A DNA stretch of 64,000 bases from Roseithermus sacchariphilus (GTDB taxonomy: Bacteria > Bacteroidota > Rhodothermia > Rhodothermales > MEBIC09517), in assembly GCA_003285105.1 (NCBI GenBank), contig CP030158.1:3392664-3456663 (forward strand), written 5' to 3'. Position 1 is the first letter of the stretch, and each line of letters begins with the position of its first letter. The notes below the pieces were generated by a model, which saw only the letters and a list, made by a program, of their open reading frames with translations, searched no databases and was not told the origin of the DNA. Positions 3,475 through 41,725 of this stretch are shown here, piece by piece. The position numbers were made by a program, and so were the translations under genes.

Positions 3475-4809
3475 ATGTCTGGACGCTGGAACTTGACCCT
3501 GCCCGCCCTGCTCGTGGTGGGCCTCATCGGGGCACCGCTGGCCGGTTGTAACCTGCTGGAGGCGGAAAACCCCAACAACCTCATCGAAGAGGACCTGAGC
3601 AATCCTCAGGCCGCCACGCCCATGGCCAACGGCGCCGAGGGCACGGTGACGCGGGCCCTCAACGCCGTCATGGGGCCCTTCTCCACGGCGACGGACGAAG
3701 TCACCTGGGTGGGCTCGCGGAACGCCTGGCAGGAACTCGACCAGGGCTTCGTCGATCGGGAACTGAACGAGTTCTCCGATGCCGCCTTCCCCTTCGTGGG
3801 CGAAGCCCGCTGGACCGTCGACAACTACGTCGAGCGCCTCGAAGCCTTCCGGGCCGACGGGGCCTCGGTGGCGGTGCCGCTGGCGCGCGTATACCTCTAC
3901 AAGGCGATCATCTATGCCACGATCGCGGACATGTTCGACAACTTTGCCTTCTCGGACCGGACCGAGCCGGGCCCGGCCATCGGCGAGGAGAACATGGTCA
4001 CGCTCTACGACCAGGCGCTCGACGCCGTCAACAAAGGGCTCGCGCTGAACGTGGGCGGCAACTGGGACGTGGCACTGACTGCCATGCGGGCCAGCCTGAA
4101 GTACCGCAAGGCGCTCTGGCAGAAGCTCAACCCCACCGTGAATACGGCCAACCCGCTCGTCGGTGGGGCGGAGCTGATCCAGGATGCCCTGGCCGCCATC
4201 GACCTGATGGGCCTGGGATCGGACTGGCGCTTCGTGCTCGAGATGGATCCCTCCCTGGATGATCTCGTGGCCGACAACCCGGAGGTCGGGCTGGCCTACA
4301 ACATCAACCAGCGCAACGAACTCCGCATCGGCGCCACGTACGTCGAGCCGAACCCGGTGGACGGCGGCAAGACCTATTCGGCCATCACCTTCACGGACAT
4401 CATCGACACGGACACCGTCAATCCGTTTCTGGAAGCCTTCCTGACGCAGTTCACGGATGATGCGCAGTATGGCGATGTCATCAGCCTGTCGGAGCGGGAG
4501 ATGCACCTGATCGCCGCCGAGGCCGAGCTGGCGGCGGGGAACGTCCCCGGCTTCACCACGCACATCAACCACATCCGGGCGATGGACGACCTGACGCCCT
4601 ACAGCGGGCAGGTCGAGCCGCTGGAGATGCTCAAGCATGCGCGGCAGGTGAACCTGTTCCTCCAGGGCCGCCGCCTGGCCGATCACTACCGGTTCCAGGA
4701 GCCCTCGCCGGAGTGGGTGCCCTCCAGCACGGCCATGCAGCAGCCCGGCACGTTCCTGCCGATCACCTTCATCGAACTCAGCGCCAACCCGCTGCTGGGA
4801 GGAGGCTGA
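3475..4809 (+). CDS. SusD/RagB family nutrient-binding outer-membrane lipoprotein
   Basis: Surface lipoprotein of 444 aa expected to cap the SusC barrel encoded upstream and bind its substrate. The ATG at 3475 was chosen because it gives a clean lipoprotein signal: a hydrophobic stretch followed by the lipobox PLAGC with the lipidated Cys at residue 25. An in-frame ATG at 3400 would add 25 Arg-rich residues before it. The body is helical and TPR-like, as in the SusD family. It ends with the family-typical RRLADHYRF region, in which SusD proteins list an Arg-rich turn near the C-terminus. It is somewhat short for SusD (usually about 450-600 aa). It lies 107 bp after the SusC gene, consistent with one operon. 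Confidence 0.9.
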   Translation: MSGRWNLTLPALLVVGLIGAPLAGCNLLEAENPNNLIEEDLSNPQAATPMANGAEGTVTRALNAVMGPFSTATDEVTWVGSRNAWQELDQGFVDRELNEFSDAAFPFVGEARWTVDNYVERLEAFRADGASVAVPLARVYLYKAIIYATIADMFDNFAFSDRTEPGPAIGEENMVTLYDQALDAVNKGLALNVGGNWDVALTAMRASLKYRKALWQKLNPTVNTANPLVGGAELIQDALAAIDLMGLGSDWRFVLEMDPSLDDLVADNPEVGLAYNINQRNELRIGATYVEPNPVDGGKTYSAITFTDIIDTDTVNPFLEAFLTQFTDDAQYGDVISLSEREMHLIAAEAELAAGNVPGFTTHINHIRAMDDLTPYSGQVEPLEMLKHARQVNLFLQGRRLADHYRFQEPSPEWVPSSTAMQQPGTFLPITFIELSANPLLGGG

Positions 4810-25534: not shown

Positions 25535-25563
25535 TTTGCATTTGAATCGTAAAGTGATAATAT
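25535..25563 (+). promoter_or_regulatory. candidate promoter of the xylanase gene
   Basis: TTTGCA (25535-25540) and TAATAT (25558-25563) are spaced by 17 bp in an AT-rich island. The match to sigma-70 consensus is partial. The -10-like element lies inside the first palindrome, which fits repression. Inferred only. Confidence 0.4.
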
Positions 25564-25588
25564 CACTTCAGTAATGTTATATTATCAC
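25552..25588. promoter_or_regulatory. two operator-like palindromes upstream of GH10 xylanase
   Basis: AAGTGATAATATCACTT (25552-25568) is a perfect 17-nt palindrome. A second copy, GTTATATTATCAC (25576-25588), differs from the core GTGATA-n-TATCAC at one arm position apart from the centre. The centres are 22 bp apart, about two helical turns, so a dimeric regulator could bind both on one face. It overlaps the candidate -10 element. A LacI-, GntR- or XylR-type repressor is possible; none is encoded in the window. Confidence 0.6.
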
Positions 25589-25697
25589 AAGATGAGCAGG
25601 GCGACCGGGATTGCCGGGCCTGCAAGGGGAGGCGGGGCGGCCCCTACTCTGCCACACCATCCACACCACACCATCCACAACAGGGAGACGTCAACCC

Positions 25698-28139
25698 ATG
25701 TCAACGGATACGATGCGGGGGCGCCGGCCGGGCGCCCGGAAAAGCGCTTTCTGGAGCAGCCTCCTGCTGCTCGTTCTGTTCATCGGCGTCGAAGCTCGTG
25801 CGCAGAGCAACACCAACGGGAGCTTCGAGGAAACCCCCGTCGGCGTCGTCACCGATCTCGGAGGCGGCATCGCGGGGTGGACGCTGAACGTCGGCACGGA
25901 CGTCGATCCCGCGCCGGTGTTCGAGATCGTCGAGGGGGACGTCCCTGATGGCAGCAAGGCACTCGCCATCACGATCAACGCGGTGGGAGCCAATGCCTGG
26001 CACATCGAAGCCACGGCGTTCCCCGTGGTGGTGGAGCCCGGGGTGACCTACACGTACTCGGTGTGGGCGCGGGCGGCGCAGGACGGTGCCGTGGCCAGCT
26101 TCACCGTGGGCAACCAGTCTTTCCAGGAGTACGGACGCCTGCATGAGCAGTCCATTTCCACCACCTGGCAGGAGTACACGTTCGAGTTCACGGTCACCGA
26201 CGAGGAGACGGAGATCCGCGCGCCCATGCATTTCAGCCTGGCGGCCAACGTGGGCAACACCATTTACATCGACCATCTCCGCATCGTGAACCCCCTGGCG
26301 GGAGCGCCGCCCGTCGTCGTAGAGGCTGAAAGCGGGACGCTCGGGTCGGAGTTTGCCACGGAGACGGAGGGGGACGTGACCTACATCACGATCACCACCG
26401 ACTACAACGAAACCACGGGCGACGGCGACCATCCCGGTGAAAACCGGACGGCCTCGTACGAGGTGACGTTTACCGAGCCGGGCTGGTACGACCTCTACGC
26501 GCGCGTCTACGTGGGCAGCGGGTCGTTCAATGACGACAGCTTCTTCTATGCCGACTCCTTCGGCGTGAAGGATCCGGAGTTGCCCGACGACTGGATCGTT
26601 GCCAACCAGCTGGCCTCGGCGGGATACACCGAGCCGGACGAGTACGTGATCGGGCTCGGCGCGGCGGGGGCCGAGGTCTGGAAGTGGGTGAACCTCTCGG
26701 AGAACAGCTTCAATGACGTGCCCTCGGATTCCTTCTACGTCTCCCCGGAAGCCCTTACGTTGACCTTCCAGATCGGCGCGCGGGAGAACGGGTTGCGCAT
26801 CGACAAGCTGGCCTTCGGGCGATCGGATCTGTACTTCACCGTCGCCAACCTCGACAACGGCGAGCCGGGATCGCCGGTGATGGAGGGGCCGGCGGTGGAG
26901 CTGCCGGAGCAGCCGCTGGCCGCGGGTCTGGACAAGTTCCTCGGCAACATCTACAGCACCTCTCAGGTCGAGAACTTCGAGTACTACTGGAACTACGTCA
27001 TCCCCGAGAACGCCGGAAAGTGGGGCAGCGTGGAGGCGACACGGGACGAGATGAACTGGGCGGGTCTGGATGCCGCCTATGCACTGGCACAGGAGCACGG
27101 GATGGGCTTCAACTTTCACGTGCTGGTCTGGGGCAGCCAGCAGCCCGCGTGGATCTCGGAGCTGACGCCGGCCGAGCAGCTCGAAGAGATCCGGGAGTGG
27201 TTCGAGGCCGTGGCGGAGCGCTATCCCAGCATGGACGTGGTGCAGGTGGTGAATGAGCCGCTGCCGGGGCACAACCCGCCCGACGGCGGCAACGGGCGCG
27301 CCAACTACATCGAGGCGCTGGGAGGAGCCGGCGAGACGGGCTGGGACTGGGTGATCACGGCCTTCGAACTGGCGCGGGAGATCTTCCCGGAAGGGACGCG
27401 GCTCATGCTCAACGACTACGGCATCCTGAGCAGCACCGGCAGCGCGCAGAGCTATCTGGAGATCATCGAACTGCTCCAGGCGCGTGACCTCATCGACGTG
27501 ATCGGGGTGCAGGGGCATGCCTTCTCGACGCGCCCCGGTGCGCCCATCGAGGACGTGCTGGATCTGCTCGCCGCCACGGGGTTGCCCATCCAGGTGACGG
27601 AGCTGGACATCGACGGCAACCCGAACCGCGATCCCTTCGTCACGCCGGCGCAGTCGGATCAGAATCAGTTGAACGACATCCAGCGAATCTTCCCGGTGAT
27701 CTGGGAGCACCCGGCCGTGGAGGGCATCACCTTCTGGGGATGGCGGCCCGGGCTGTGGCGCAACGAGGAGGAGGCCTATCTGGTGCACGCCAACGGGGAA
27801 GAGCGCCCGGCCATGGTCTGGTTGCGGGAATACATGACCTCGTATCGCACCCCGGTGGAGTCCCGGGAGGAACTGCCCTCGGACCTCACGGTGGAGGCCT
27901 GGCCGAATCCGTCCACCGGTGCGACGCAGTTCCGCTACACCCTGACGGAACCGGCGCCGGTGACGCTGCGCGTCTATGACCTCATGGGGCGGGAGGTGGC
28001 CACGGTGGTGTCGGAGTGGCAGGCAGCCGGGACGCACGAGGTGCGGTTCGATCCGGACGGCCTGGGCAGCGGCCTCTATGTGTATCGGCTCGATGCCGGC
28101 CACCACCGGCAGAGCGGCCGATGGGTACTGGTCCGCTAG
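25698..28139 (+). CDS. secreted GH10 endo-1,4-beta-xylanase with CBM4_9 and T9SS sorting domain
   Basis: Cleaves beta-1,4-xylan outside the cell. The ATG at 25698, after a GGGAGA element, gives 813 aa with a signal peptide ending at ARAQ. Domains: CBM4_9-like module about 25-200; a second beta-rich CBM6/35-like module about 205-375 (opens [14 protein letters not shown], ends [10 protein letters not shown]); GH10 catalytic barrel about 400-710; T9SS type A C-terminal domain about 728-813 (EAWPNPSTG ... VLVR). Catalytic acid/base E520 lies in VVNEPL and nucleophile E635 in [18 protein letters not shown] and the EGITFWGW motif are also GH10-typical. Length and layout match what I recall of XynRA2 from Roseithermus sacchariphilus RA. 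An AT-rich promoter region with two palindromes precedes it. Confidence 0.95.
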
Positions 28140-28261: not shown

Positions 28262-31231
28262 ATGAGAGTCCTACGCCGTTTCCTGTGGTTTCTCATCTGC
28301 TGTGCGCTGAGTCCCGCGGTCTACGCGCAGACCGGTCGCATCGTCGGCACCGTCGTCGATGCCACCAACGGCGATCCGCTGCCCGGCGCGAACGTCCTGG
28401 TTGCCGGCACGCGCCTGGGAGCCGCCACCGACGTGGAGGGGCGCTTCCTCATCCCCGGTGTGCCGTCGGGGGCGCAGACCCTGGTGGTGTCCTATATCGG
28501 GTATGATCGCCAGGAGGTGCCGGTGCAGGTCGAACCCGATGCCGAGGTCACGGTGCGTGTCGAGATGGTCTGGGCCGGACTGGAGAGCGAAGAGGTGGTC
28601 ATCACGGCCCAGGCGCAGGGGCAGTTGCAGGCCATCAACGAGCAACTCAGCGCCCGTACGATCAAGAACGTGGTCTCGGCCGAGCGCATCCGCGAATTGC
28701 CCGATGAGAGCGCCGCAGCGGCCGTCAGCCGCCTGCCCGGCGTGTCCCTGCAGAATGGCGACCAGATCGTCATCCGGGGCATCGAAGCCAAGTTCAACAC
28801 GGTGGCGGTCAACGGCATTCAGTTGCCTTCGACGACGACCAACCGCACGACGGGGCTGGGCTTCATCTCCTCGAACATGCTTTCGGGCATCGAAGTCTCG
28901 AAGACCGTGACCCCGGCCATGGATGCCAACTCCATCGGCGGCAACGTGAACCTGCGGCTGCGCGAGGCCCCGGAGGGGCTGCACTACGATGCCATGCTCC
29001 AGGGCGATTACAACACGCAGGACCACACCGCGGATAACTACCGCATCTGGGCCAGTGTGAGCAACCGCTTCTGGGGCGGCCGCCTGGGCGCGTTCCTGCA
29101 GGGCAATGCCCGGCGGTTCAACGGCGGGGGGGACATCGCCTCGGCCACCTGGACGCCCCTGCCGCAGGCCGACGAGGTGGCCGGCCGCCGTCCCTACGCG
29201 CTCAGCCAGTATGACCTGGAGGACCAGGTCAACGTGGACAACGAGTACGGCGCCAGCCTGCTGCTGGACCTCCGCCTGCCCGGCAACGGCAAGCTGATCC
29301 TGCAGAATGCCTACTCCTCCGAGCGCTTCGACAACGCCCGCCTGATCGACCGCCTCTTTCTGACGACCGGGAACCGGGAGTTTCGTATCAACCGGACCCG
29401 GGGCACGCGGTATCTCCTGGTGAACGCGTTGCAGGGCGAGCATCAACTGGGCGGCATCGGGGTGGACTGGTCGCTCTCCCACGCGCGCAGCCAGCGCAAG
29501 GACGACCTCGGCTACGAAACGACGTTCATCGGCACGGGCTACTTCGAGGGGCGTCCCCTGCCGACCTGGCTTTCCGAGGAGCAGGTGTTCGACATCGCCC
29601 TGACCGAGGGCACGCCGGGGGCCGTCGGTGACGGCTTCACCACGTACGAAGACTTCGGCGAGCGGCGGCTCGTCGGCGCCGTCAACGTGAGCGTGCCCCT
29701 CATCGCCGGCCCTCTCTTCGGGCGAATCCAGGGGGGCGGCAAGTACACCCGCCTCAATCGGGACCGCGACCTGCTGCAGTACTACCGCCGCCTGGCCGAT
29801 GGGGGTGGGCAGAACACCGGAGCCGCCGATTTCCTTCAGGAGATCGGCGCCGATCCGGCCGCTGCGCTCAACCTGAGCGTCTTCAAGGACGATGCGTACG
29901 CCGACGGACGCGGGCAGTATTACCTGGACGGGCGGTGGCCATTCACCGGAGCGCTGAACGTCGATTACCTGGACACGTATTTCCGCCTGGCCCAGACCGG
30001 CTGGGCCACCCCGGCGCTGGCGCAGTCCAACCGCTTCGATTACGTGGCCGAAGAGTCCGTGGCCGCCGGGTATCTCATGGCCGACCTCGACGTGGGGCGG
30101 TACCTCACGCTCCTCGGAGGGGTCCGCTACGAAGCCTTCCGGTTCGACAACCGCGCCCCGTTCGTCAACCAGACGCTCTACGACGGGCAGGGAGACGTGC
30201 GGGACACGTTGCAGGTGTCGCGCTCGATGGGGCACTGGTTCCCCAACCTGCAGGTGCAGATCAAGCCGCTGGAGTGGCTGGACCTGCGCCTGGCCTACAC
30301 GCGCACGACCTCCCGGCCGGATTATCAGTACCTGCTGCCCAACACCTGGGTGGACTCCGGCGAGCGGGGGCAGGCCGGCAACCCCAACCTGCTGCCGACG
30401 CTGGCGGACAACTACGACGCCTACCTCTCGCTGCATCACAACCGCATCGGGCTCTTCACGGTGGGCGTCTTCCGCAAGGTGCTCGCCCACATCGTGCGTC
30501 CCGTGTCGATCCAGCGACGCACGCTGGACAACTTCGAGGGCACGTTCTGGGCACCCGTCCATGCCGGCTACCCCGAGTGCGAAGACGGCCGGGTACGCAT
30601 CGCGTGCCCGGACGGCGCCCTCGTGCCGGACATCAACCCGGTCGGCCTGATCGAGACGTACGTGAACAACCCGGACGACGGCGTCATCCAGGGCTTCGAG
30701 GTGGACTGGCAGACCAACTTCTGGTACCTGCCCCGGCCCTTCAACAGCCTGGTGCTCAACGTCAACTACACCCGCCTGCATTCTGAGATGGATTACCAGT
30801 CCATCTTTCTGACGCCGGAGCCGGGCTGCACCTTCTTCTGCAGCCTCGTCCAGGTCGATACGGTGCGCACCGGGCGGCTCTTCCAGCAAGCCGACGACGT
30901 GGTCAACGTCGCCGTCGGCGTCGACGTCGGCGGGTTTTCCGGGCGGCTGTCGTTCCGCTATCAGGGGGAGATCCTGGCGAGCCTGGACCAGCGCGATCCG
31001 GCCAATGACGCCTTCACGCGGCCGGTCTATGGCTGGGACTTCTCCCTGCGCCAGCGGCTGCCCGTCGAAGGCCTGTCTCTCTTCTTCAACGGCGTCAACA
31101 TCACGCATCCGGCCAGCTACAACTACCGGACGCTGGTCGTCGGCCCGGAGGCCACGGCGCCGTCGGAGGCCATCACCCAGATCGCCTACTACCCCCGCCG
31201 GTTCCAGCTCGGCATCCGGTACGGCATCTGA
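28262..31231 (+). CDS. TonB-dependent outer-membrane receptor
   Basis: Outer-membrane barrel of 989 aa for TonB-driven uptake. The signal peptide ends at VYAQ (residue 22). A carboxypeptidase-regulatory-like domain spans about 23-100 (GRIVGTVVDATNGDPLPGAN). The plug follows at about 125-240 with RIRELPDESAAAAVSRLPGV and NSIGGNVNLRLR, wording typical of oligosaccharide-type TonB receptors, not of the SusC subfamily. A long beta-barrel closes with FQLGIRYGI. No SusD partner is encoded beside it. It follows the xylanase by 122 bp across a strong hairpin and is itself followed by a secreted beta-helix protein, so uptake of xylan products is a reasonable inference. A short AAGG lies 5 nt before the ATG. 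Confidence 0.92.
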   Translation: MRVLRRFLWFLICCALSPAVYAQTGRIVGTVVDATNGDPLPGANVLVAGTRLGAATDVEGRFLIPGVPSGAQTLVVSYIGYDRQEVPVQVEPDAEVTVRVEMVWAGLESEEVVITAQAQGQLQAINEQLSARTIKNVVSAERIRELPDESAAAAVSRLPGVSLQNGDQIVIRGIEAKFNTVAVNGIQLPSTTTNRTTGLGFISSNMLSGIEVSKTVTPAMDANSIGGNVNLRLREAPEGLHYDAMLQGDYNTQDHTADNYRIWASVSNRFWGGRLGAFLQGNARRFNGGGDIASATWTPLPQADEVAGRRPYALSQYDLEDQVNVDNEYGASLLLDLRLPGNGKLILQNAYSSERFDNARLIDRLFLTTGNREFRINRTRGTRYLLVNALQGEHQLGGIGVDWSLSHARSQRKDDLGYETTFIGTGYFEGRPLPTWLSEEQVFDIALTEGTPGAVGDGFTTYEDFGERRLVGAVNVSVPLIAGPLFGRIQGGGKYTRLNRDRDLLQYYRRLADGGGQNTGAADFLQEIGADPAAALNLSVFKDDAYADGRGQYYLDGRWPFTGALNVDYLDTYFRLAQTGWATPALAQSNRFDYVAEESVAAGYLMADLDVGRYLTLLGGVRYEAFRFDNRAPFVNQTLYDGQGDVRDTLQVSRSMGHWFPNLQVQIKPLEWLDLRLAYTRTTSRPDYQYLLPNTWVDSGERGQAGNPNLLPTLADNYDAYLSLHHNRIGLFTVGVFRKVLAHIVRPVSIQRRTLDNFEGTFWAPVHAGYPECEDGRVRIACPDGALVPDINPVGLIETYVNNPDDGVIQGFEVDWQTNFWYLPRPFNSLVLNVNYTRLHSEMDYQSIFLTPEPGCTFFCSLVQVDTVRTGRLFQQADDVVNVAVGVDVGGFSGRLSFRYQGEILASLDQRDPANDAFTRPVYGWDFSLRQRLPVEGLSLFFNGVNITHPASYNYRTLVVGPEATAPSEAITQIAYYPRRFQLGIRYGI

Positions 31232-31261
31232 CCGGCGGTGCCTCCAAGTCTGCGCCGCCGG
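31232..31261 (+). terminator. hairpin after TonB receptor gene
   Basis: CCGGCGGTGC pairs with GCGCCGCCGG (10 bp with one G-U) directly after the receptor stop codon, with CTCTGTTTCC following. It is a weak terminator or attenuator, second of its kind in this cluster. Confidence 0.45.
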
Positions 31262-31303
31262 CTCTGTTTCCCATCCACCATCATGCAACCTGACCGAACC
31301 GCC

Positions 31304-33262
31304 ATGAGACGAACGCTAAGCCTGTTGCTCGTGCTGGCCTGCGGGGCGTCCGCCGCGCTGGCCCAGAACCCCTTGCAGGACTACGTCCTGGAAGTCCGGG
31401 GAGATACTCTTGTCATTGCCGACTTCTTCGACGCCGGTGGCCGGGCCAGCACGCTCGGGGCCGTCATCCAGGCCGATACCGACGCCGGTAACGTGCCGCC
31501 GGGGCGGGTCTACATGCTGAAGAAGGGTTCCAACGGCACCCTCCAGTCCGGCAACATGTCCCTCTACCTGTTCGACGCCTCCATCCCCGAGCAGGGCCGC
31601 CCGATCACGATCGTCGGGGAGTACTGCGGGCAGATCGTCAGCAGCGGGGATCCCGATTGCCGCCCCCCGACGATCGCCGGGTACCAGGATGCCTCGGGCA
31701 ACCCGGTGCTGGCGACGATCAACATCGACGACGACCTGACGATGAAGAACCTCCACTTCACCAGCGCCCACATCCAGGGCCAGGCCAACTGGAGCTTTGT
31801 CAACATCAACGGGGACAACGTCACGGTGACCTGGGAGAACGTGCTCGGTGAGCACAACCGCTGGGTCTGGGTCAACTCCAACGACAACCCCGGCACCTCG
31901 CTCATCATCCGGGACAGCTACTTCCTCAATGCCACCGACCAGCCCTCGCGTCGTAACGGAGGTGTCTATGACGCCGTCGGGGTGCCCACAGAGATGGTCT
32001 GGGTCGAGAACACGACCCACGTCCAGAACCAGGGAATGCAGTACAAGTTCAGGAGCTACGCGCCGTCGCAGGTGGTCTTCAACCACAACACGTTCGTCAA
32101 TGCGGCGGGCCAGCTGTTCCTCGGCTTCGGCTACCTGACCCACTTCGTCGTCACGAACAACCTGTTCGTCAACAGCAACTTCCAGCCCTACTATCCGGGC
32201 CTGGATTTCTCCGAGATGTACAGCGATGCCACGGCCGTCGAGGAATTCCAGCCGCATGGCATCATCAACCTCAACTACCTGCCCCGCGATGAGAACGGCA
32301 ACACGTACGCGATTACGGCGGCGGCCTGGCCGGAGGTGCAGCCCTTCGACGAGGCCGACCGCAAGGTGCTCGTGGACCTGAACGCCGCCTACTGGGATCC
32401 GCTGCTGCTGACCATCGCCGACAACCTCAACGCGGCCGGGGTGGAAGGCGACGTCTGTGAGAGCGACGGCTGTGTGCAGGGCGATGCATCGCTGAACTGG
32501 ACCTCGCAGGCCATCCTGGCCAACGAGCGCACGCTGGCGATGTTTGCCGACGATCAGCAGTTCCCGTACCTGACCTGGGGCACCTGGTACGAGGCCGGAC
32601 CGCCCAACTTCACCGATGGGCCGGGCATGGTGCAGGAGCTCTACGACTGGGGCTACGACTCGGCCAACAGCGGGATCACCGTCCAGCAGCTGCTGCCCAA
32701 GGTCCGCGAGCCCGGCAACGAGGCCGGCAACGAGATCGACGACGAGAACACGAACAACTGGATCGTGTTCGACTGGCCGCTGGCGGTCGACCTGACGTAT
32801 TCGAACGAGACGTACCTGAACGGCGGATACAACGGCTTTCCGCTGGGGGACCTGAACTGGTATCCGGAGCAGAAGGCGGCGTGGCTGGCACAGCGCGAGG
32901 CGGAGTATGCCGCCATCGAAGCCGCGCTGAATGCCGGGACCACGATCAGCACGTCGGTGGAGGAGGTCCGGGGTGAGGTGCCGTCTCGGATGCAACTGGA
33001 TCAGAACTACCCGAACCCGTTCAACCCGAGCACGAACATCCGGTTTGCGCTGGATGAGCCGGGGCGGGTAGAGCTGGCCGTGTACGACGTGCTAGGCCGC
33101 CGCGTCGCCACGCTCGTCGACCAGCACCTGGCCGCCGGGGTCTACCAGGTGGCCTGGAGCGCCAGGGATGAAGCCGGGCTGCCCGTCAGCAGCGGGGTCT
33201 ACTTCTACACCCTGCGCGCCGGGGATCGGGTCGAGACGCGTCAGATGGTCTTCCAGAAGTGA
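31304..33262 (+). CDS. secreted beta-helix-like protein with T9SS sorting domain
   Basis: Extracellular protein of 652 aa. The ATG at 31304 starts a clean signal peptide (MRRTLSLLLVL ... ALAQ); another in-frame ATG lies at 31283. The central part shows Asn-rich rungs with repeated patterns such as VNINGDNVTVTWENV, IIRDSYFLNAT, VFNHNTFVNA and FVVTNNLFVNS, which is typical of a right-handed parallel beta-helix. The C-terminus at about 564-652 is a T9SS type A domain with NYPNPFNPSTNIRFAL and SGVYFYTLRAGD. Many beta-helix proteins are polysaccharide lyases or pectinases, but I see no catalytic signature to choose one. Position between a TonB receptor and a chaperone gene suggests a surface glycan-binding or -cleaving role. 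Its last bases overlap the open frame of the isomerase gene. Confidence 0.85.
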   Translation: MRRTLSLLLVLACGASAALAQNPLQDYVLEVRGDTLVIADFFDAGGRASTLGAVIQADTDAGNVPPGRVYMLKKGSNGTLQSGNMSLYLFDASIPEQGRPITIVGEYCGQIVSSGDPDCRPPTIAGYQDASGNPVLATINIDDDLTMKNLHFTSAHIQGQANWSFVNINGDNVTVTWENVLGEHNRWVWVNSNDNPGTSLIIRDSYFLNATDQPSRRNGGVYDAVGVPTEMVWVENTTHVQNQGMQYKFRSYAPSQVVFNHNTFVNAAGQLFLGFGYLTHFVVTNNLFVNSNFQPYYPGLDFSEMYSDATAVEEFQPHGIINLNYLPRDENGNTYAITAAAWPEVQPFDEADRKVLVDLNAAYWDPLLLTIADNLNAAGVEGDVCESDGCVQGDASLNWTSQAILANERTLAMFADDQQFPYLTWGTWYEAGPPNFTDGPGMVQELYDWGYDSANSGITVQQLLPKVREPGNEAGNEIDDENTNNWIVFDWPLAVDLTYSNETYLNGGYNGFPLGDLNWYPEQKAAWLAQREAEYAAIEAALNAGTTISTSVEEVRGEVPSRMQLDQNYPNPFNPSTNIRFALDEPGRVELAVYDVLGRRVATLVDQHLAAGVYQVAWSARDEAGLPVSSGVYFYTLRAGDRVETRQMVFQK

Positions 33263-33330
33263 GCAGCCCGCCCGCCGTGGCCGTGGCCCGCACGGGTCGC
33301 GGCCGGCGGCGGCGGGAGGCGGTGGTGTCT

Positions 33331-35118
33331 ATGCCGATGAACGGGCCGATGAACGGAAAAGCGCGGACGGAGCGCAGGCGGCGGGTGTGGCGGATGTGGA
33401 TGCTCGGGCTGGTGATGGCGATGGGAGGGGGGAGCGTGTTGTACGCCCAGCCCGTGGAGGATCCCGGGGCGGGCGTCGTGGCCCTGGTGGCGGAGCAGAT
33501 CCCCATCACGGCGGCGGACCTGTCGGCGTATCTGGCCGAGCGGCCGCATCTGGTTGCCACGCAGCCGAGGGCCGAGGCCTACCGGCAGGCGCTGGACGCG
33601 CTGGTGACGGCGGCCCTGAAGCGAGTGGATCTGTTTGCCTCGGGCCTGGCGGCGGATAGCGCGTTGCTGCGCCAGGTGCATCGCATCGCCACGGAGGAAC
33701 TGGTGCTGGCCTATGCGCGCCATCGATACGAGGAAGCCTACCTGAACGAGGAAGCCATCGGCCGGGAGCACGCGCTGATGGGGCGCGTCGTGCACGCCCG
33801 CCAGCTCGTCCTGCCCCGTCCCGCCGGGGCGTCCGACGCCGCCCTGGATTCGCTGCGTGCCGTGGTGGAGGGCGTCCAGCAGGCGCTCGAAGCGGGAACC
33901 CCCTTCGAAACGCTTCGCCTTCGCTACGCGGCGGGCCAGACCGCCCCGCGGACGCTGCGCATCACCTGGGAGATGACCGCCCGGAACCCGCGGGCCTACC
34001 ATCTTTTCCGTCTCGCTCCGGGCGACGTGCGGAGCTTCGAGGAGCCGCACCGCTTCAGCGTGGTTCAGATCGAGCGCATCGAGCGGCACGACCCGCCCCC
34101 GATGGCCGAGGCCCGCCCCCGGATCGTCGAAGCCCTGCAGGGTCGGCACGCCGCGGCGGCCACGCGGGCGTACCGGCAGGAGTGGCTGGCCCTGGTGGAC
34201 ACCCTGGCGCTCCGCTGGAATGCAGCCGCGCTGGATCGGCTCGTCGCCTGGGCCAACACGCCGGGCTTCTTCGAGGGCCGCTATACGGAGACGGTCCGGG
34301 CCTACCTGGCGGACCACCCCGATGCCGTTCTCCTGGACGACGGCCGGGGGGCGCTCCGCCTCAGCGACCTGCCTCGCCTTTTCGATGAGGTCCTGACCCT
34401 CCGGCGTTCCGGTGGGCGGACGGTGGCGTATATGCAGGACTTCCTCCTGGAAGCGGTGCGCACACGCCGGCTCGCCGAACGCGCCCGGGCGCTGGGCTAC
34501 TGGGATCGGGTCTGGCGGCCGGACACCCCCAGCCCGATCCTGGCCGGGGCCTTCGTCCGGTACTACGACGAACACGTCATCGCGGCTCGCCTGCCTCACC
34601 CCACGATGGCGGACCTGCAGGCCTTCTACCAGGCCCATCTCGATTCGCTGTTCTATCAGCCGGCGCGGGTGTACACAGAGATCATCACCCGGAGCCGCTG
34701 CGCCGAGGTGGCGGCGCTCCGGGATCGGATTCTCCAGGGCGTGCCGTTCGAGGAAGCCTCCCATCGCCGGCTGATCCGTTCCTACGAACGCACGCGCTCG
34801 GGCCAGATCGTCACCCGAAACAGCCGGGAGCCCGCCTACTTCGGGGCGCTTGCCTTTGGCCTGGCCGAAGGGGAGGTATCCGAGCCGGTTGCCTATGAGG
34901 ACCCGCGGGAAGGGCCGCGCTGTGCCCTGGTGCGGGTGACCCGGCGCCTGCCCGAAGGTCCCCGACCGTTCGATAAGATCCGCGACGAGGTGGTCGATGC
35001 CTTCACCGCACACCACCGGCAGCGCCTCGAACGGGAGGTGGCGGCGTCACTCCGAGCCCGCTATCCGGTGACGGTCTACCCCCAGGTGCTGCATGCCCTG
35101 GCCGACGGCGCGCTGTGA
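33331..35118 (+). CDS. periplasmic SurA/PpiC-like peptidyl-prolyl isomerase
   Basis: Envelope folding factor of 595 aa. The ATG at 33331 follows a GGAGG at 33315-33319. A very basic N-terminus and a hydrophobic segment (about 19-39, ending LYAQ) act as signal peptide. A SurA-N-like helical region (about 45-150, VALVAEQIPITAADLSAYL) precedes a first parvulin-like domain (about 155-255, VVHARQLVLPRP ... LRLRYAAG) and a second, clearer one near 445-550 (TEIITRSRCAEVAALRDRI, EGEVSEPVAYED). Two degenerate rotamase domains are usual for SurA-like proteins. It lies between two genes for T9SS-exported proteins and the reading frames nearly touch on both sides, so it is probably in their operon and may help fold their products. 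Confidence 0.85.
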   Translation: MPMNGPMNGKARTERRRRVWRMWMLGLVMAMGGGSVLYAQPVEDPGAGVVALVAEQIPITAADLSAYLAERPHLVATQPRAEAYRQALDALVTAALKRVDLFASGLAADSALLRQVHRIATEELVLAYARHRYEEAYLNEEAIGREHALMGRVVHARQLVLPRPAGASDAALDSLRAVVEGVQQALEAGTPFETLRLRYAAGQTAPRTLRITWEMTARNPRAYHLFRLAPGDVRSFEEPHRFSVVQIERIERHDPPPMAEARPRIVEALQGRHAAAATRAYRQEWLALVDTLALRWNAAALDRLVAWANTPGFFEGRYTETVRAYLADHPDAVLLDDGRGALRLSDLPRLFDEVLTLRRSGGRTVAYMQDFLLEAVRTRRLAERARALGYWDRVWRPDTPSPILAGAFVRYYDEHVIAARLPHPTMADLQAFYQAHLDSLFYQPARVYTEIITRSRCAEVAALRDRILQGVPFEEASHRRLIRSYERTRSGQIVTRNSREPAYFGALAFGLAEGEVSEPVAYEDPREGPRCALVRVTRRLPEGPRPFDKIRDEVVDAFTAHHRQRLEREVAASLRARYPVTVYPQVLHALADGAL

Positions 35119-35177
35119 CGTCCTCCGGCCAGACTCATCCGCGTCGTCCGCCCGGGCGGTGCGCCAACCCGAACGCC

Positions 35178-36887
35178 ATGACACCATGCTTGCGCCGTGC
35201 CGGTGTGTTGCTCGCCGGTCTGATGCTGACGCTGCCCGCCCGGGCCCAGTTCGGGCCGGCGCCTCCCGTGCCGGACGTGCCGGGCGTGACCATCCGTGAG
35301 GTGGCGCGGATCCCGGGACCGTACCGTCCGGTCCGCATCGCGCAGGACCCCACCGACGGGGCGCTGTACGTGCTGGCGACCACGCGGCCCGACGGCACGG
35401 AGCCGTCTACCAGCACCCTCTTCCGCCTCGACCCGGATGGAGACGGCACCTTCACGCCGACGCCCGTCCTGCAGGACCACGAGTTCGGGGCCCCACGGGC
35501 CATCGGGCTGGCGTTTGCGGGGGACGGTACGCTGTTCATCCTGGGCAATGAGGAGGTAGGGAGCACCCACACCCGCATCGTCATCCAGCGGGGACGTCGC
35601 CAGGAGGGGAACTGGGTCTGGGAGAACGTGGCGACGTCGGAGCCCTACCTGCTCAGTCACACCTGGTTCGACCATCGGGCCAATGCCCTCGTCGTGTCGC
35701 CGGACGGCGCTACGTTGCTCGTCAACTCCGGCTCCCGGACGGATCACGGGGAGATGTACGGCGGGGTTCGGGAAGAGGGCCTCACGGCGCTCATCCTGCA
35801 GATCCCGGCCGATGCCACCGAACGCGTATTGCCCAACGACCGGGAGGCCCTCCGCGCGGCCGGTTATGTCTATGCCGAAGGGACGCGCAACACGGCCGAT
35901 CTCGCTTTCGCCCCCAATGGCGATCTGTTCGGCCCCGATAACGCGGGCGACCGGGACGACAGCGAGGAACTGAACTGGCTGCGCGAGGGCCAGCACTACG
36001 GATTTCCCTGGCGCATCGGCACGAGCATCACCCCGATGCAGTTCGCGGGCTACGACCCCGACCGGGATCCGTTCGTGCAGCGGGACCGCAACCCCACCAA
36101 TCGGGCCGATACCGGGTGGTACTTCAGCAACGACCCGACCTTCCCGCCGCCGCCCGAGGGGGTCACGTTCGTCGATCCCATCCCCAACGTGGGTCCCTAC
36201 GCAGACCGGTACCGGGATCCGGAGACGGGGGACGTGCTCGACGCCAGCGACACCGGGACGACGATCGGTACGTTCACGGGACACCGGTCCCCGCTGGGGC
36301 TCGTCTTCGACGCCGACTCGGTCGTGGCCGAGCCGATGCGAGGAGGCGCGTTCCTCCTCAGTTTCAATAGCGATGCAGATCTGATGCTCAGCCGGCTGGG
36401 CGGGACGGGAGAGGACCTGCTGTATCTGGATCTGGAGAAGGACGAGGGGGCGTACACCGTTTCGGCCGAACGGGTGGCACACGGGTTCGTGCACCCGGTC
36501 GATGCCGTCATGGTCGAACACACGATCTACGTCATCGAGTACGGGAGCTGGAACGACGTCGGAGATCGGCGGGCGGTGCATGCGGTGACGCTACCGCGCC
36601 ATGTCGGCACGGCCCTCGGAGAGGCCCCGGATCATGCTGCGGCGGTCGTCGAGGTGTATCCGAATCCCGCCGGCGAGCGCCTGACACTCTGGTACCGGTT
36701 GCCGGAAGCGGCCGAGGTGGGGGTGGAGCTGTTCGACCTGCTGGGGCGGCGCGTGCAGGCCAGGACAGGCCTGGGGCGCGAGGGGCGCGTGCATCTGCCC
36801 ACTGACGGGCTTCCTGCCGGCGTCTATATCGTGCGCCTGACGGCGGGTGATCGCCACGTGTCCCGGCGCGTCCACGTCGTTCGATGA
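35178..36887 (+). CDS. PQQ-dependent sugar-dehydrogenase-like beta-propeller with T9SS sorting domain
   Basis: Secreted protein of 569 aa. The signal peptide ends at PARAQ (residue 24). A six-bladed propeller of the glucose/sorbosone dehydrogenase type spans about 35-470, seen in GVTIREVARIPGPYRPVRIA, GLAFAGDGTLFILGN, RNTADLAFAPNGDLF and SEELNWLREGQHYGFPW, the last two close to the PQQ-dehydrogenase core pattern. The C-terminus (about 490-569) is a T9SS type A domain with VEVYPNPAGERLTLWY and GVYIVRLTAGD. It may oxidise sugars released outside the cell, but the cofactor ligands cannot be confirmed by eye. It begins 59 bp after the isomerase stop in the same direction. Confidence 0.85.
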   Translation: MTPCLRRAGVLLAGLMLTLPARAQFGPAPPVPDVPGVTIREVARIPGPYRPVRIAQDPTDGALYVLATTRPDGTEPSTSTLFRLDPDGDGTFTPTPVLQDHEFGAPRAIGLAFAGDGTLFILGNEEVGSTHTRIVIQRGRRQEGNWVWENVATSEPYLLSHTWFDHRANALVVSPDGATLLVNSGSRTDHGEMYGGVREEGLTALILQIPADATERVLPNDREALRAAGYVYAEGTRNTADLAFAPNGDLFGPDNAGDRDDSEELNWLREGQHYGFPWRIGTSITPMQFAGYDPDRDPFVQRDRNPTNRADTGWYFSNDPTFPPPPEGVTFVDPIPNVGPYADRYRDPETGDVLDASDTGTTIGTFTGHRSPLGLVFDADSVVAEPMRGGAFLLSFNSDADLMLSRLGGTGEDLLYLDLEKDEGAYTVSAERVAHGFVHPVDAVMVEHTIYVIEYGSWNDVGDRRAVHAVTLPRHVGTALGEAPDHAAAVVEVYPNPAGERLTLWYRLPEAAEVGVELFDLLGRRVQARTGLGREGRVHLPTDGLPAGVYIVRLTAGDRHVSRRVHVVR

Positions 36888-36913
36888 ACGACCCCGGCGG
36901 CGAGGGGAGAAGG

Positions 36914-36997
36914 TGCGAAAGGGGGGACTCGAACCCCCACGGGTGTTACCCCACCAGATCCTAAGTCTGGCGCGTCTGCCAATTCCGCCACTTTCGC
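36914..36997 (-). tRNA. tRNA-Leu (anticodon UAG)
   Basis: Class II tRNA with a long variable arm. The acceptor stem GCGAAAG/CTTTCGC pairs fully (36991-36997 with 36915-36921). The anticodon arm CCAGA-CTTAGGA-TCTGG gives UAG. The T arm has GGGGGTTCGAGTCCCCC. The discriminator is A; CCA is incomplete in the DNA. Confidence 0.97.
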
Positions 36998-37162
36998 AGG
37001 AATCAGGGTCCGTGGTATTCCCGGGGCGCAAACCGGGTTCCTGGAGCGGGAACGGGGCCGGAAACGCACGGCCATGCCGTGAGTTAGCAGGGGTCGGCTG
37101 CCTCGCCGCATGCCGATCCTTCTGCCTCATCCATGGACGCATCCACCGTCCCCGCCCTGCTC

Positions 37163-39448
37163 ATGCCCTCTTCCCGTCTCCGCCCGGCCGTGCTGGCCGT
37201 CCTGCTCGTGCTCGTGGGGGTGCTCCCCGGTTGCTCCGGCGCCGAACGCTCGACCGCCCGGGTCGTGCCCGAACGGGCCGTCATCAGCGAAGCCCCCGCC
37301 CCGATCACGGAAGCCCCCTCCGGGCAGGCCGCCGCTGCCGTGCTGGATCTGCCCTCGCTGGAGGAGCTGGTGCCGAAACCGCGCCTGGACACGGTGCAGG
37401 CCCGGCCCTTCGATACCGGGCGGATGTGGACGTTCGAGTACCCGCCGCTGGACTACTTCGAGCAGGCCTACGGCTTCCGGCCGGATTCCGCCTGGCTCAA
37501 CCGGGCTCGCCTCGCTGCGCTGCGCATCCCCGGCTGCTCGGCCTCGTTCGTCTCGTCGCACGGGCTGATGCTGACCAACCACCACTGTGGCCGTGGCTAC
37601 CTGCCGGCCCTCAGCGGCCCGGAGGAAAACCTGCTGGAAGACGGCTTCCTGGCGACGACGCTGGCCGAGGAACGCCCCGTCGCCGGGCTCTATGCCGAGC
37701 AGCTGGTGGCCATTACCGACGTGACGGCGGAGGTGGCCGAGGTGCTGGATGCCGCGGAAACCGCGGCCGAGCGATCCGCCGCGCTGGACTCGGTGGAAGC
37801 GGCGCTGGCCGAACGGCTCCTGGCGCCCTACGGTGGCCCGGAGGCGGGCTACCGCCTGCAACTCATCACGCTCTATCACGGCGGCCGCTACTCGGCCTAT
37901 ACCTTCCGCCGCTACGACGACGTCCGGCTCGTCTTCGCGCCGGAGCTCCAGCTGGGCTACTTCGGAGGCGACCCGGACAACTTCACCTACCCCCGCTACA
38001 ACCTGGACATGATGCTCTTCCGGGTCTATGAGGACGGACGCCCGTTGTCGTCCCCTCACTATTTCCCCTGGTCCAACCGGGGCGTGCGTGAGGGCGATGC
38101 CGTCTTCGTCATCGGCAACCCGGGGACGACCTACCGGCTGGAGACGATGGCGCAGTTGCGCTACCGCGCGGCCGTGCGGGAGCCGGCGCTGCTGCGTTTC
38201 TACCGGACGCGCCGGGAGGCGCTCACGCGCGTCTACGAGCAGACGGGCGAGGAGGCCGTGCGCAACATGGCTTTCAGCCTCTCCAACGGGGAGAAGGCCT
38301 ACGAGGGGTTCGTGAAGACGCTGCGGGATCCCTACATCATGGCCCGGCTCGAAGACGGAGAACGGCGCTTCCGGGCCGCCCTCGCGGCGGACTCGGCGCT
38401 GCAGGCACGCTACGGGGATCTGCACGAGCACATGGCCGAGATCCAGCAGGAGAAGACGGCGCTGGGCCAGGCCTACGGGGCGTTTCTGCTGTTGCAGCCG
38501 GGCACGCCCTACGGCGCGGTGCTGATGCAGCGCGCCCTGCTGGCCTGGCAGTGGCTCACCCGGCAGGAGGAGGGGGCTTCCGCCGAGGCCCTGGATGCCC
38601 TCCGTACGTCCCTGCTGGCGCTGGAGGACCGCGACCCCGCGCTGGAGCAGGCCTTCGTGGCGCTGCGCCTGGAGGACCTCCGGCACTATCTCGGAGCCGG
38701 CCACCCGGCCGTGCGTGGCCTGCTGGAGGGCCGGTCCCCGTCGGAAGCCGCCGCCGACCTGCTGGCGTCCTCGGTGCTGGCGACGCAGGACGGTCTGGCG
38801 GCGGCGCTCGAGGCCGGCACCCTCGCGCGCACCGATCCGGCGATCCGGGTGATCGACGCCCTGCAGCCGGCCTACCGGGATTTCCAGAGCGCCCAGGCCG
38901 GGCTGGCCGCCGAGGAAGCCGAGCTGGCCCGCCGCCTCGGTCAGGCTCGCTTCGCCGTCTATGGCACCGCCATCCCGCCCGATGCCACCTTCTCGCTGCG
39001 CCTGGCCGACGGGGTGGTGAAGTCCTACCCCTACAACGGCACCGTCGCCCCCGCCTTTACGACGTTCGATGGGCTGTACGACCGCTACTACGCGCACGGC
39101 GGGGCCGGCACCCCCTGGGATCTGCCCGAGCGCTGGCTCGACCCGCCCGCCACGTTCGACCGCACGACGCCCTATAACTTCGTCTCGACCAACGACATCG
39201 TGGGGGGGAACTCCGGCTCGCCGGTCGTGAACCGCGCCCTCGAGCTCGTCGGGGTCGCCTTCGACGGCAACATCGAGAGCCTCTCGGGACGCTACATCTT
39301 CCGCACCGACGGCCCACGCGCCGTGTCGGTCGATGCCCGCGGCATGCTGGAGGCGCTCGATGAGATCTACGAGGCCGATCGGCTCGTGATCGAGCTGATG
39401 ACGGGCGCGGTGCCGGAGGCGGAGGCCGACCCCTCCAGCCGCCCCTGA
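37163..39448 (+). CDS. S46 family dipeptidyl-peptidase, lipoprotein (DPP7/DPP11 type)
   Basis: Releases dipeptides from the N-terminus of peptides in the periplasm or at the cell surface. From ATG 37163 it has 761 aa and a lipobox VLPGC (Cys24); an ATG at 37133 is an alternative. The S46 catalytic pieces are visible: His140-His141 in TNHHCG, Asp282 in FTYPRYNLD and Ser684 in GGNSGSP. Eighteen residues after the Ser, at the position known to govern P1 choice in DPP7/DPP11, is Gly702 (FDGN), as in DPP7-type enzymes that favour hydrophobic P1 residues. The middle helical domain is intact. A closely related S46 gene follows 42 bp later, so this is a tandem pair. Confidence 0.93.
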   Translation: MPSSRLRPAVLAVLLVLVGVLPGCSGAERSTARVVPERAVISEAPAPITEAPSGQAAAAVLDLPSLEELVPKPRLDTVQARPFDTGRMWTFEYPPLDYFEQAYGFRPDSAWLNRARLAALRIPGCSASFVSSHGLMLTNHHCGRGYLPALSGPEENLLEDGFLATTLAEERPVAGLYAEQLVAITDVTAEVAEVLDAAETAAERSAALDSVEAALAERLLAPYGGPEAGYRLQLITLYHGGRYSAYTFRRYDDVRLVFAPELQLGYFGGDPDNFTYPRYNLDMMLFRVYEDGRPLSSPHYFPWSNRGVREGDAVFVIGNPGTTYRLETMAQLRYRAAVREPALLRFYRTRREALTRVYEQTGEEAVRNMAFSLSNGEKAYEGFVKTLRDPYIMARLEDGERRFRAALAADSALQARYGDLHEHMAEIQQEKTALGQAYGAFLLLQPGTPYGAVLMQRALLAWQWLTRQEEGASAEALDALRTSLLALEDRDPALEQAFVALRLEDLRHYLGAGHPAVRGLLEGRSPSEAAADLLASSVLATQDGLAAALEAGTLARTDPAIRVIDALQPAYRDFQSAQAGLAAEEAELARRLGQARFAVYGTAIPPDATFSLRLADGVVKSYPYNGTVAPAFTTFDGLYDRYYAHGGAGTPWDLPERWLDPPATFDRTTPYNFVSTNDIVGGNSGSPVVNRALELVGVAFDGNIESLSGRYIFRTDGPRAVSVDARGMLEALDEIYEADRLVIELMTGAVPEAEADPSSRP

Positions 39449-39490: not shown

Positions 39491-41725
39491 ATGCTCCCCA
39501 TGAATCGGACGTTCCCGTTTCGCCTCCGTCCCGCCTGGTGGCCGGTCCTGCTGTTCGTCGGCCTCGTGCCCGGCATCGCCCGCGCGCAGGAGGCCCCCCC
39601 GGCCGAAGGAGCCCGGGCCGTGCAGCAGGCCGCCGCAATCGACGTCGATGTGCCACCGGTCGACAGCGTGGGGCGCTTCGACCTGGGCAAGATGTGGACC
39701 TTCGACAACCCGCCGCTGGACTACTTCGAGGAGGCCTACGGCTTCCGGCCGGATTCGGCCTGGTTCCGCAGGGCCCGGCTCGGCGCGCTGCGCATCCCCG
39801 GCTGCTCGGCCTCGTTCGTCTCGCCCGCCGGCCTCGTCATGACCAACCACCATTGCGTGCGCGAGTACGTCACCAAGGTCAGCCGGCCCGGTGAGACGTT
39901 GCTCGACGACGGGTTCTATGCCGCGTCGCTGGACGAAGAACGGGCCGTCGAGGGCGTCCATGCCGATCAACTCATCGCCATCGAGGACGTGACGGACCGG
40001 ATCGTGGGCGACCTCACCCGGATTCGCTCGGACCGCCAGGCCGAGATGGTCGAGCAGCGCGTCGAGCGCCTCGCCGAGCGGATGACGGCGGCGGCCAAGA
40101 TGCGCGACACGACGCTGTTCGTGGAGATCATCGCGCTCTATGACGGCGGACAGTATTCCGCCTACACGTTCAAGCGCTTTCACGACGTCCGCCTCGTGAT
40201 GGCGCCGGAGGTGCAGATCGGCTTCTTCGGGGGGGATCTGGACAACTTCACCTACCCGCGCTACAACCTGGACGTCTCGTTTCTGCGGATCTACCAGGAC
40301 GGAGCGCCCTACGAGCCGGAGGTGCACTTCCCCTTCAACCCGCAGGGTGCCGGGCCGGGTGAAGCCGTCTTCGTGGTCGGCAATCCCGGTACCACCAGCC
40401 GGCTCAACACGCTGAGTCAGTTGCTCTTCGAGCGGGACTACGACCTGCCGTATCAACTCGACGCCCTGCGCCGCCGCGCGGCCTTGCTGGCCGAGTACCT
40501 GGCGGCTCACCCCGAGGACGCCGAGCGCTATGATCTGCGCAACACCTACTTCTCGATGATGAACTCGATCAAGGCCTACACGGGCCAGCTCGAGGGGTTG
40601 AAGGACCCGGATCTGCTGGCGGCTCGCCTCGACAACGAGCGGCAGCTGCGCCGGGCGATCCAGTCCAGCGATTCGCTGCGTGCGCTCTACGGCGACGTCT
40701 TCGACCGCATCGAGGATCTGCAGCAGGCCAAGAAGGCGACCGTGCGGCAAGGGGCGGCGCTGCTGTTCTACACGACCTCGCTCGGCTCGCACGTGCTGAC
40801 GCGGGCGGCCTACGGCTATCTCTACGACCGGCTGCGGCAGCGCAACTACCCGGCGCCCCGCCTCGCCGACATCCGCAAGGACGCCCTGAAGGTGGAAGAC
40901 CTGCCGCCGGACGTCGAGGAAGCCCTGATCCGTGCGCGTCTGGAAGATCTGCAAACCTATCTGGGACCCAACGACCCCACGTTGCGGCGGGTGCTCGCGG
41001 GCCGCACCATCGAGGAGACGGCCGCCTACATCGCGCACAACACGGCGCTGATCGACACGACCGGCTTCGTGCGGCTGCTCGACGAAGGCTTTCTCAACAG
41101 CGGCGACCCGACGGTGGTCATCGCCGAGGCGCTGACGCCGCTCTACTTCACGCTCGGTCAGCAGCAGAGCAGCTTCGAGGAACGGGAAAAGGCGCTGAAC
41201 GCCCGGCTGGCCCGCGCCCGATTCGCCATCTATGGCAAACGCTTCCCCCCGGATGCCACCTTCTCGCTGCGCATCAGCGACGGCGTCGTGCGGGGCTATC
41301 CGTACAACGGCACGCAGGCGCCCGCCTTCACCACGTTCTACGGCCTCTACGACCGCTTCAACACCTTCGGCCCCGGCACGGACTGGGCGCTGCCGCCGCG
41401 CTGGACGCAGCCGGCCCCGGGCTTCGAGCCGGCCACCCCGCTCAACCTGGTGACCACCAACGACATCACCGGGGGCAACTCCGGCTCGCCCCTCCTGAAC
41501 CGGGATCTGGAGGTCGTCGGCCTCATCTTCGACAGCAACATCGAGGCGCTGCCGAACGAGTACCTCTACACCGACGAAACGGCGCGGGCGGTGGCGGTGG
41601 ACGTGCGCGGCATCCTGGAAGCCCTCGACGATGTCTACGATGCCGATCGGCTGGTGCTCGAGCTGACCTCCGGCCGCGTGTTCGCCACCGAGGCGGAGGC
41701 CGACGCGGCCATGGCTCAGGACTGA
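39491..41725 (+). CDS. S46 family dipeptidyl-peptidase, secreted paralogue
   Basis: Second S46 peptidase, 744 aa, with a cleavable signal ending at IARAQ and not a lipobox. Catalytic elements match its neighbour: His120-His121 in TNHHCV, the Asp in FTYPRYNLD, and Ser664 in GGNSGSP. The N-terminal blocks are nearly the same as in the upstream copy (PPLDYFE.AYGFRPDSAW, IPGCSASFVS). The residue 18 after the Ser is Ser682 (FDSN) where the upstream copy has Gly, which suggests a shifted P1 preference; this is inference from family work on DPP7 and DPP11. ATG 39500 is an alternative start. It ends 11 bp from the convergent metalloenzyme gene. Confidence 0.93.
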   Translation: MLPMNRTFPFRLRPAWWPVLLFVGLVPGIARAQEAPPAEGARAVQQAAAIDVDVPPVDSVGRFDLGKMWTFDNPPLDYFEEAYGFRPDSAWFRRARLGALRIPGCSASFVSPAGLVMTNHHCVREYVTKVSRPGETLLDDGFYAASLDEERAVEGVHADQLIAIEDVTDRIVGDLTRIRSDRQAEMVEQRVERLAERMTAAAKMRDTTLFVEIIALYDGGQYSAYTFKRFHDVRLVMAPEVQIGFFGGDLDNFTYPRYNLDVSFLRIYQDGAPYEPEVHFPFNPQGAGPGEAVFVVGNPGTTSRLNTLSQLLFERDYDLPYQLDALRRRAALLAEYLAAHPEDAERYDLRNTYFSMMNSIKAYTGQLEGLKDPDLLAARLDNERQLRRAIQSSDSLRALYGDVFDRIEDLQQAKKATVRQGAALLFYTTSLGSHVLTRAAYGYLYDRLRQRNYPAPRLADIRKDALKVEDLPPDVEEALIRARLEDLQTYLGPNDPTLRRVLAGRTIEETAAYIAHNTALIDTTGFVRLLDEGFLNSGDPTVVIAEALTPLYFTLGQQQSSFEEREKALNARLARARFAIYGKRFPPDATFSLRISDGVVRGYPYNGTQAPAFTTFYGLYDRFNTFGPGTDWALPPRWTQPAPGFEPATPLNLVTTNDITGGNSGSPLLNRDLEVVGLIFDSNIEALPNEYLYTDETARAVAVDVRGILEALDDVYDADRLVLELTSGRVFATEAEADAAMAQD

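Follow-up and report, generated by a model that had tools for sequence, protein, structure and literature searches.

Recurring pairs of a TonB-dependent receptor and a beta-helix protein, and their setting in a putative xylan locus of Roseithermus sacchariphilus

The five-gene locus and its close relatives

The genes described here lie in a stretch of 64,000 nucleotides (nt) of Roseithermus sacchariphilus (assembly GCA_003285105.1, contig CP030158.1, positions 3,392,664 to 3,456,663 of the forward strand), referred to below as the window. The initial annotation had grouped a TonB receptor, a beta-helix protein, an isomerase and a PQQ (pyrroloquinoline quinone)-like dehydrogenase into one secretion-linked cluster. 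The four same-strand frames were recovered where it had placed them, but the cluster has one more gene at its 5' end, encoding an endo-xylanase of glycoside hydrolase family 10 (GH10; 25698-28139, + strand, 813 amino acids (aa)). Pfam and NCBIfam profiles divided this protein into CBM4_9, GH10 and a tail of the type IX secretion system (T9SS), the tail scoring 31.0 bits with TIGR04183 (cut-off 23) and 22.5 bits with PF18962, under its cut-off of 27. The xylanase agreed in length and at eight of eight landmark residues (Q36, N198, E396, E520, E635, Y712, W735 and V810) with XynRA2 of R. sacchariphilus, for which these residues have been named (PMC6539836).

The receptor (28262-31231, +, 989 aa) has an N-terminal CarboxypepD_reg_2 domain and is of the TIGR01782 type, not SusC. 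It scored 340.7 bits with TIGR01782, over the curated cut-off of 310, which bears out its annotation as a TonB receptor, and 69.4 bits with the SusC profile TIGR04056, whose cut-off is 368.25. All receptors that were scanned (45/45) matched TIGR01782. The gene directly behind the receptor is not SusD. It encodes the beta-helix protein (BH; 31304-33262, +, 652 aa), a putative partner of the receptor. Next come a SurA-like isomerase of the parvulin type, predicted to be periplasmic (33331-35118, +, 595 aa; PF13145 at 51.3 bits, cut-off 27), and a GSDH-like beta-propeller candidate (35178-36887, +, 569 aa). The isomerase thus sits, as annotated, between two genes with T9SS tails, and the prediction that both products are T9SS cargo (type A) agrees with TIGR04183 scores of 38.4 bits for BH and 40.3 bits for the GSDH-like protein (cut-off 23). 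With PF18962 the BH tail reached 26.0 bits, under the cut-off of 27.

Gene boundaries had been reported as near-touching, which holds if the earliest GTG codons are taken as starts. When the likelier ATG codons are used, the gaps from xylanase to receptor, BH, isomerase and GSDH-like gene are 122, 72, 68 and 59 nt, a spacing that still appears operon-like. The absence of SusD holds for the four annotated genes, but elsewhere the window does hold a SusC/SusD pair, some 24 kb upstream of the receptor. This SusC-type receptor (plug at ~497-862) and SusD (~4498-4728) stand at the window start, ~21 kb before the xylanase. The genome has six receptor-SusD pairs, this one included; the SusD at 4498-4728, which has a receptor of its own, is the nearest in the genome list. 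A neighbouring glycoside hydrolase, by which SusC/SusD pairs are also judged, is present for the window receptor in the GH10 at 25698-28139.

Close relatives of both BH and the isomerase were found in 3 of 114 genomes of the order, R. sacchariphilus included. The gene order is not confined to this strain. In one relative (G036) it is the same. In the other (G047) the five genes keep their order, but a GDSL/TPR gene and a second gene, which we take to be a GH9-like frame, are inserted before the GSDH-like gene. Identities to the window proteins in G036 and G047, respectively, were 77% and 70% for the receptor, 76% and 65% for BH, 55% and 45% for the isomerase, and 71% and 58% for the GSDH-like protein.

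The wider series in G036 comprises a LacI-like regulator (by eye), a T9SS-tailed frame, GH10 with CBM4, receptor, BH, isomerase, GSDH-like gene and a second GH10, and it corresponds to the entries for Rmar_1067-1074 in Table 1 of PMC6987092. There, Rmar_1067-1081 of Rhodothermus marinus are given as a putative xylan locus, with 1071-1073 labelled hypothetical and the receptor predicted to be co-transcribed with Xyn10A; the SusC/SusD pair that the paper stresses is listed further along, at Rmar_1077-1078 (PMC6987092). The locus itself is therefore already known from R. marinus. With a GH10 xylanase that matches XynRA2 at its head and a putative xylan locus as its R. marinus counterpart, the cluster supports the earlier proposal of a surface oligosaccharide system, which can be narrowed to xylan, the substrate that we infer for the window locus.

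Pairing of the receptor with the beta-helix protein

Pairing was counted in 103 stretches (part of the window, L049, L050, L083-L102 and L133-L212; set 1), in which 113 BH frames scored more than 60 bits. A receptor was scored as paired when it lay on the same strand from -200 to 400 nt upstream of BH. Such a receptor preceded 100 of the 113 BHs, at a median gap of 76 nt, and when at least 600 nt of upstream sequence was present and overlaps of up to 320 nt were allowed, the count was 101 of 112. For set 2, the named collection was scanned with alignment A9 and short BH patterns, which gave 234 matches, of which 79 loci were kept; on contigs of a length not seen in set 1, a receptor stood ahead of 45 of 50 BHs. 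Because loci were picked by BH and not by receptor, the count is not circular. The named loci came from Rhodothermia, Balneolia, Melioribacter and other Ignavibacteria, Bacteroidales, Neomarinimicrobiota, Calditrichota and KSB1. As a control, T9SS tails were found behind a receptor in 4 of 88 cases in the R. sacchariphilus genome, two of the four being the genome's two BHs. Receptor and BH thus recur as a pair across the FCB (Fibrobacterota-Chlorobiota-Bacteroidota) group more than expected by chance.

The other two T9SS-tailed neighbours in the control are a 467-aa frame at 1645542 and the partner in a pair at 1145052, which the BH profile did not match. The latter (L213, 7032-13268; 1.145 Mb) consists of a receptor and then a 1045-aa T9SS-tailed protein outside the BH profile, and is perhaps a further partner type. 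The second receptor-BH pair of the genome (L098, 6272-11919; 2.21 Mb) is close to a SusC/SusD pair, and its BH has an added CBM35. In the 103 stretches the sole SusD match was L098_20, the source of the single-sequence profile used, which distant SusDs could escape.

Distances in the receptor tree and the BH tree, compared over 86 full-length pairs, were correlated with r = 0.921 (rank correlation 0.825). Partners were then exchanged within genomes among 55 pairs in the 23 genomes holding at least two pairs. Over 5000 trials, r averaged 0.335 and did not exceed 0.709. Since the value for the true pairs lies above this maximum, the partners have stayed together through duplication and spread, as would be predicted of a functional pair.

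The enzymes encoded beside other receptor-BH pairs are varied (GH43, GH127, GH95, GH2, PL11, GH115 and GH94), and for this reason the pair is probably a general sugar-uptake module. BHs without a receptor ahead were seen in L086, L090 (16990-18855), L140, L141 and L143, and in L140 an alpha-L-fucosidase follows. Two or more BHs stand in tandem in L095 (4444-8205) and L196. A receptor fragment with BH (L290) was found in a metagenome-assembled genome titled Actinomycetota, where a binning error is likelier than transfer. The scan of plasmids for BH gave no match. A first scan of genome contigs with the window BH sequence alone found no relative, and alignment A9 then found the 234 matches. Alignment A6 matched 341/341 genomes and was rejected as a count of BHs, as it holds the T9SS tail common to many exported proteins; only long matches were used.

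An AlphaFold model of BH built from 98 sequences was confident (predicted local distance difference test (pLDDT) 90.9, predicted template modelling score 0.87) and bears out the beta-helix that had been predicted. A first model from three sequences (pLDDT 35.2) was dropped. With the good model, Foldseek matched only the T9SS tail at E<0.001 (PorZ, 5m11). The helix matches come from a second look with VIA-align, which does not show folds that Foldseek ranked lower. At the top was 7dmk_B (Z 26.3, 294 residues, 2.5 A), followed by 7o77 (Z 23.1, 253 residues, 2.7 A) and 5gkd_A (Z 22.2, 258 residues, 3.1 A). Further matches were other carbohydrate-active helices and a beta-helix adhesin (4mr0, Z 13.6). 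DUF4957 was rejected as a family name, as a single BH (L096, 1.3e-6) matched it, under the cut-off. T9SS tails were present in 29/29 BHs displayed from the compared stretches.

Two motifs mark the protein. Close to where the helix domain ends, BHs keep the signature GDLNWFP, which in the window BH reads GDLNWYP (residues 515-521; 32846-32866, +); in the alignment of 98 BHs, G515 and D516 are invariant and W519 and P521 nearly so. RRNGG (residues 216-220; 31949-31963, +) is invariant in 18/18 rows of alignment A9 and is followed by invariant H, K and R. It is the marker of the clade that bears the isomerase. Such a positively charged patch may suit xylan fragments bearing methylglucuronate; in L219, a T9SS-tailed glucuronyl esterase is encoded between BH and the isomerase.

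The same observations can be read in another way, with BH as a surface polysaccharide lyase or hydrolase that trims the chain ends, or the side groups bearing glucuronate, prior to import, the receptor simply taking the product. The nearest solved folds are indeed lyases of polysaccharide lyase family 6 (PL6) and other carbohydrate-active helices, the RRNGG clade strongly conserves Arg, Lys, His and Asn along the helix, and the esterase in L219 adjoins one such BH. However, the top matches cover residues 426-756 of two-domain PL6 alginate lyases, the second helix and C-terminal domain, whereas the PL6 active site, presumably formed by a catalytic Lys and Arg with a calcium site, is taken to lie in the first. 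BH matched no Pfam or NCBIfam enzyme family, a sequence-profile search of solved structures gave nothing of note, and conservation of the charged patch does not extend to the wider BH set, though these BHs are equally strictly paired with receptors. An enzymatic BH is therefore considered unlikely, and a role as partner of the receptor is preferred.

The isomerase, the last gene and the flanking sequence

Among 139 BHs with enough downstream sequence, an isomerase stands directly behind 28 of the 33 that carry RRNGG (30 of 33 when one intervening gene is counted, as in L219 and L223, where the isomerase is one gene further downstream), versus none of the 106 without RRNGG. The RRNGG BHs form one clade with a support of 1.0 in both trees, so the association reflects few events, and its Fisher value is not to be taken for a probability. 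Three RRNGG BHs (L140, L215 and L244) have neither receptor nor isomerase. Over 24 triads, the distance correlations were 0.85 for isomerase and BH, 0.85 for isomerase and receptor, and 0.92 for BH and receptor. Relatives of the isomerase in L085 and L223 have two parvulin domains, and by eye the relatives start with plain signal peptides or are lipoprotein-like.

The initial annotation had assigned the isomerase to the folding of T9SS cargo, and an isomerase that folds or holds such cargo, BH in particular, would agree with its place between two T9SS-tailed genes, or behind two of them in L219 and L223. A different isomerase, of unknown function, is described as a subunit of the T9SS translocon of Flavobacterium (PMC10994853). 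As first stated, the proposal is not supported: the counts do not fit an isomerase that serves T9SS cargo in general, because none of the 106 BHs outside the clade is followed by it, although T9SS tails were present in 29/29 BHs displayed, and the three clade members that lack a receptor lack the isomerase too. In this general or BH-directed form it is doubtful, though the role may be narrowed to folding the BH of the RRNGG clade. From these counts, the isomerase appears not to be a general T9SS helper and to be tied to the receptor-BH pair of one clade, and a role for that clade's receptor, or for receptor and BH together, fits best. Two 2025 papers report that the machinery assembling the outer membrane of Bacteroidota includes isomerases (PMC12611786, PMC12578637), which makes a dedicated helper for the receptor plausible.

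A similar-looking protein of ~775 aa was noted downstream of the isomerase, either directly or one gene on, in L084 (17478-19808), L085, L087, L089 and L090; it was weakly like spermidine synthase in L087 and had no family in L084.

The last gene had been called a PQQ-like dehydrogenase. It does match the GSDH family (PF07995, 30.0 bits, cut-off 25), but aligns to soluble glucose dehydrogenase only locally and weakly (E 0.0005), and in that alignment RNPQG of the dehydrogenase reads RNTAD, with RN kept and PQG not, the positions of the PQQ contacts being those we assume for the enzyme. The profile matched in 3 of 23 stretches compared. The protein is perhaps an accessory, sugar-binding propeller.

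Downstream, the cluster is bordered by a tRNA-Leu (tag) gene detected with ARAGORN (36912-36997, - strand), and two tandem S46 peptidases follow directly behind (37133-39448 and 39491-41725). Ahead of the xylanase lies a perfect palindrome of 13 bases, GTGATAATATCAC (25554-25566), with an imperfect copy 22 bases on (25554-25591). No other exact site occurs in the 4.8 Mb genome, the sole place with one mismatch is the adjoining copy, and the palindrome was not seen by eye upstream of the G036 xylanase. Palindrome and copy form a possible operator. Scans for promoters and terminators gave no more matches than shuffled sequences.

Interpretation and comparison with known systems

We put at about an even chance the reading that the five genes form an operon for xylan uptake that does without SusD, in which BH acts as a SusD-like partner. 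The GH10, exported by T9SS, would remain at the surface and cleave xylan, and the TIGR01782 receptor would take up the released xylo-oligosaccharides using TonB energy. BH, likewise exported by T9SS, would sit on or beside the receptor and capture or gate oligosaccharides, doing for it what SusD does for SusC though unrelated to SusD. The SurA-like isomerase would serve in the periplasm as a dedicated chaperone for the receptor of the RRNGG clade, or for the receptor-helix pair, and the GSDH-like protein would be a lineage-specific accessory.

Several observations weigh against this proposal. Congruent trees also follow from inheritance of one operon and are no proof of contact between the partners. 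No receptor precedes 13 of the 113 BHs in set 1 (12 when a long overlap is permitted), so that BH can occur on its own. R216, R217, H239, K248 and R250, the charged residues invariant in the RRNGG clade, could be an active site. Among the fetched stretches, many of them short, a GH10 was found within 8 kb of just 8 of 39 RRNGG BHs (and 10 of 128 other BHs), and the clade may not be specific to xylan. The RRNGG cases that lack both receptor and isomerase number just three. That the locus is a loose xylan gene set, its receptor and BH tied by shared regulation alone and BH an adhesin or cell-wall binder outside transport, is improbable: receptor-less BHs exist, some beside other sugar enzymes, and one structural match is a beta-helix adhesin, but a loose set would not be expected to show so strict an order and spacing throughout the FCB group, nor tree congruence so specific to the partners.

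More tentatively, and at somewhat less than an even chance, the SusD-like role proposed for BH may extend beyond this locus. TIGR01782 receptors of the FCB group with a T9SS-exported BH as extracellular lid or ligand-catcher would then be a second class of SusC/SusD-like transporters, of independent origin, with its own chaperone in one clade. Polysaccharide utilisation loci are usually located via the SusC/SusD pair, and locus finding based on SusD would have missed this class. If so, many sugar-uptake loci in Rhodothermia, Balneolia, Ignavibacteria, Neomarinimicrobiota, Calditrichota and KSB1 have so far been read as "receptor plus hypothetical protein", T9SS would be part of nutrient import by supplying the receptor's partner, and the clade-specific isomerase would have a testable client. 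R. marinus, whose xylanase from this locus is well studied, would serve readily as a test organism. The recurring pair, its partner-specific congruence, the BH fold and the clade-bound isomerase are new here; no description of them was found in the open-access literature searched, subscription journals and preprints being outside that search.

The nearest known counterpart is the putative xylan locus of R. marinus, which, like that of G036, has a LacI regulator, GH43, Xyn10A, the receptor, three hypothetical proteins and a second GH10, and which shares with the window the core of GH10, receptor, BH, isomerase and GSDH-like gene. It differs in that Rmar_1070-1071 are not treated as a pair in the account of the locus given there (PMC6987092). 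SurA resembles the window isomerase as a periplasmic parvulin-type protein, a location predicted for the latter, and the relatives of the isomerase have two parvulin domains; unlike SurA, the isomerase is clade-specific and tied to one receptor-helix pair, and it is lipoprotein-like by eye in some relatives. Two-domain PL6 alginate lyases (7dmk, 5gkd) share the parallel beta-helix with BH, which aligns to their second domain, but identity is 17-18%, there is no sequence-profile match, the partner genes are others, and BH carries a T9SS tail.

TIGR01782 receptors also occur in Xanthomonas and Caulobacter, some of them used for xylan. They belong to the same subfamily, are related to sugars and act without SusD, whereas the window receptor has the added N-terminal CarboxypepD_reg_2 domain. 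We know of no T9SS and no beta-helix partner in those hosts. The SusC/SusD pairs of Bacteroidota resemble the window pair in their arrangement, a TonB-dependent receptor and then an exported surface protein beside sugar-cutting enzymes, with many copies in the phylum. They differ in both members, the window receptor being TIGR01782 and not TIGR04056, and its partner a T9SS-tailed beta-helix protein and not a SusD lipoprotein.

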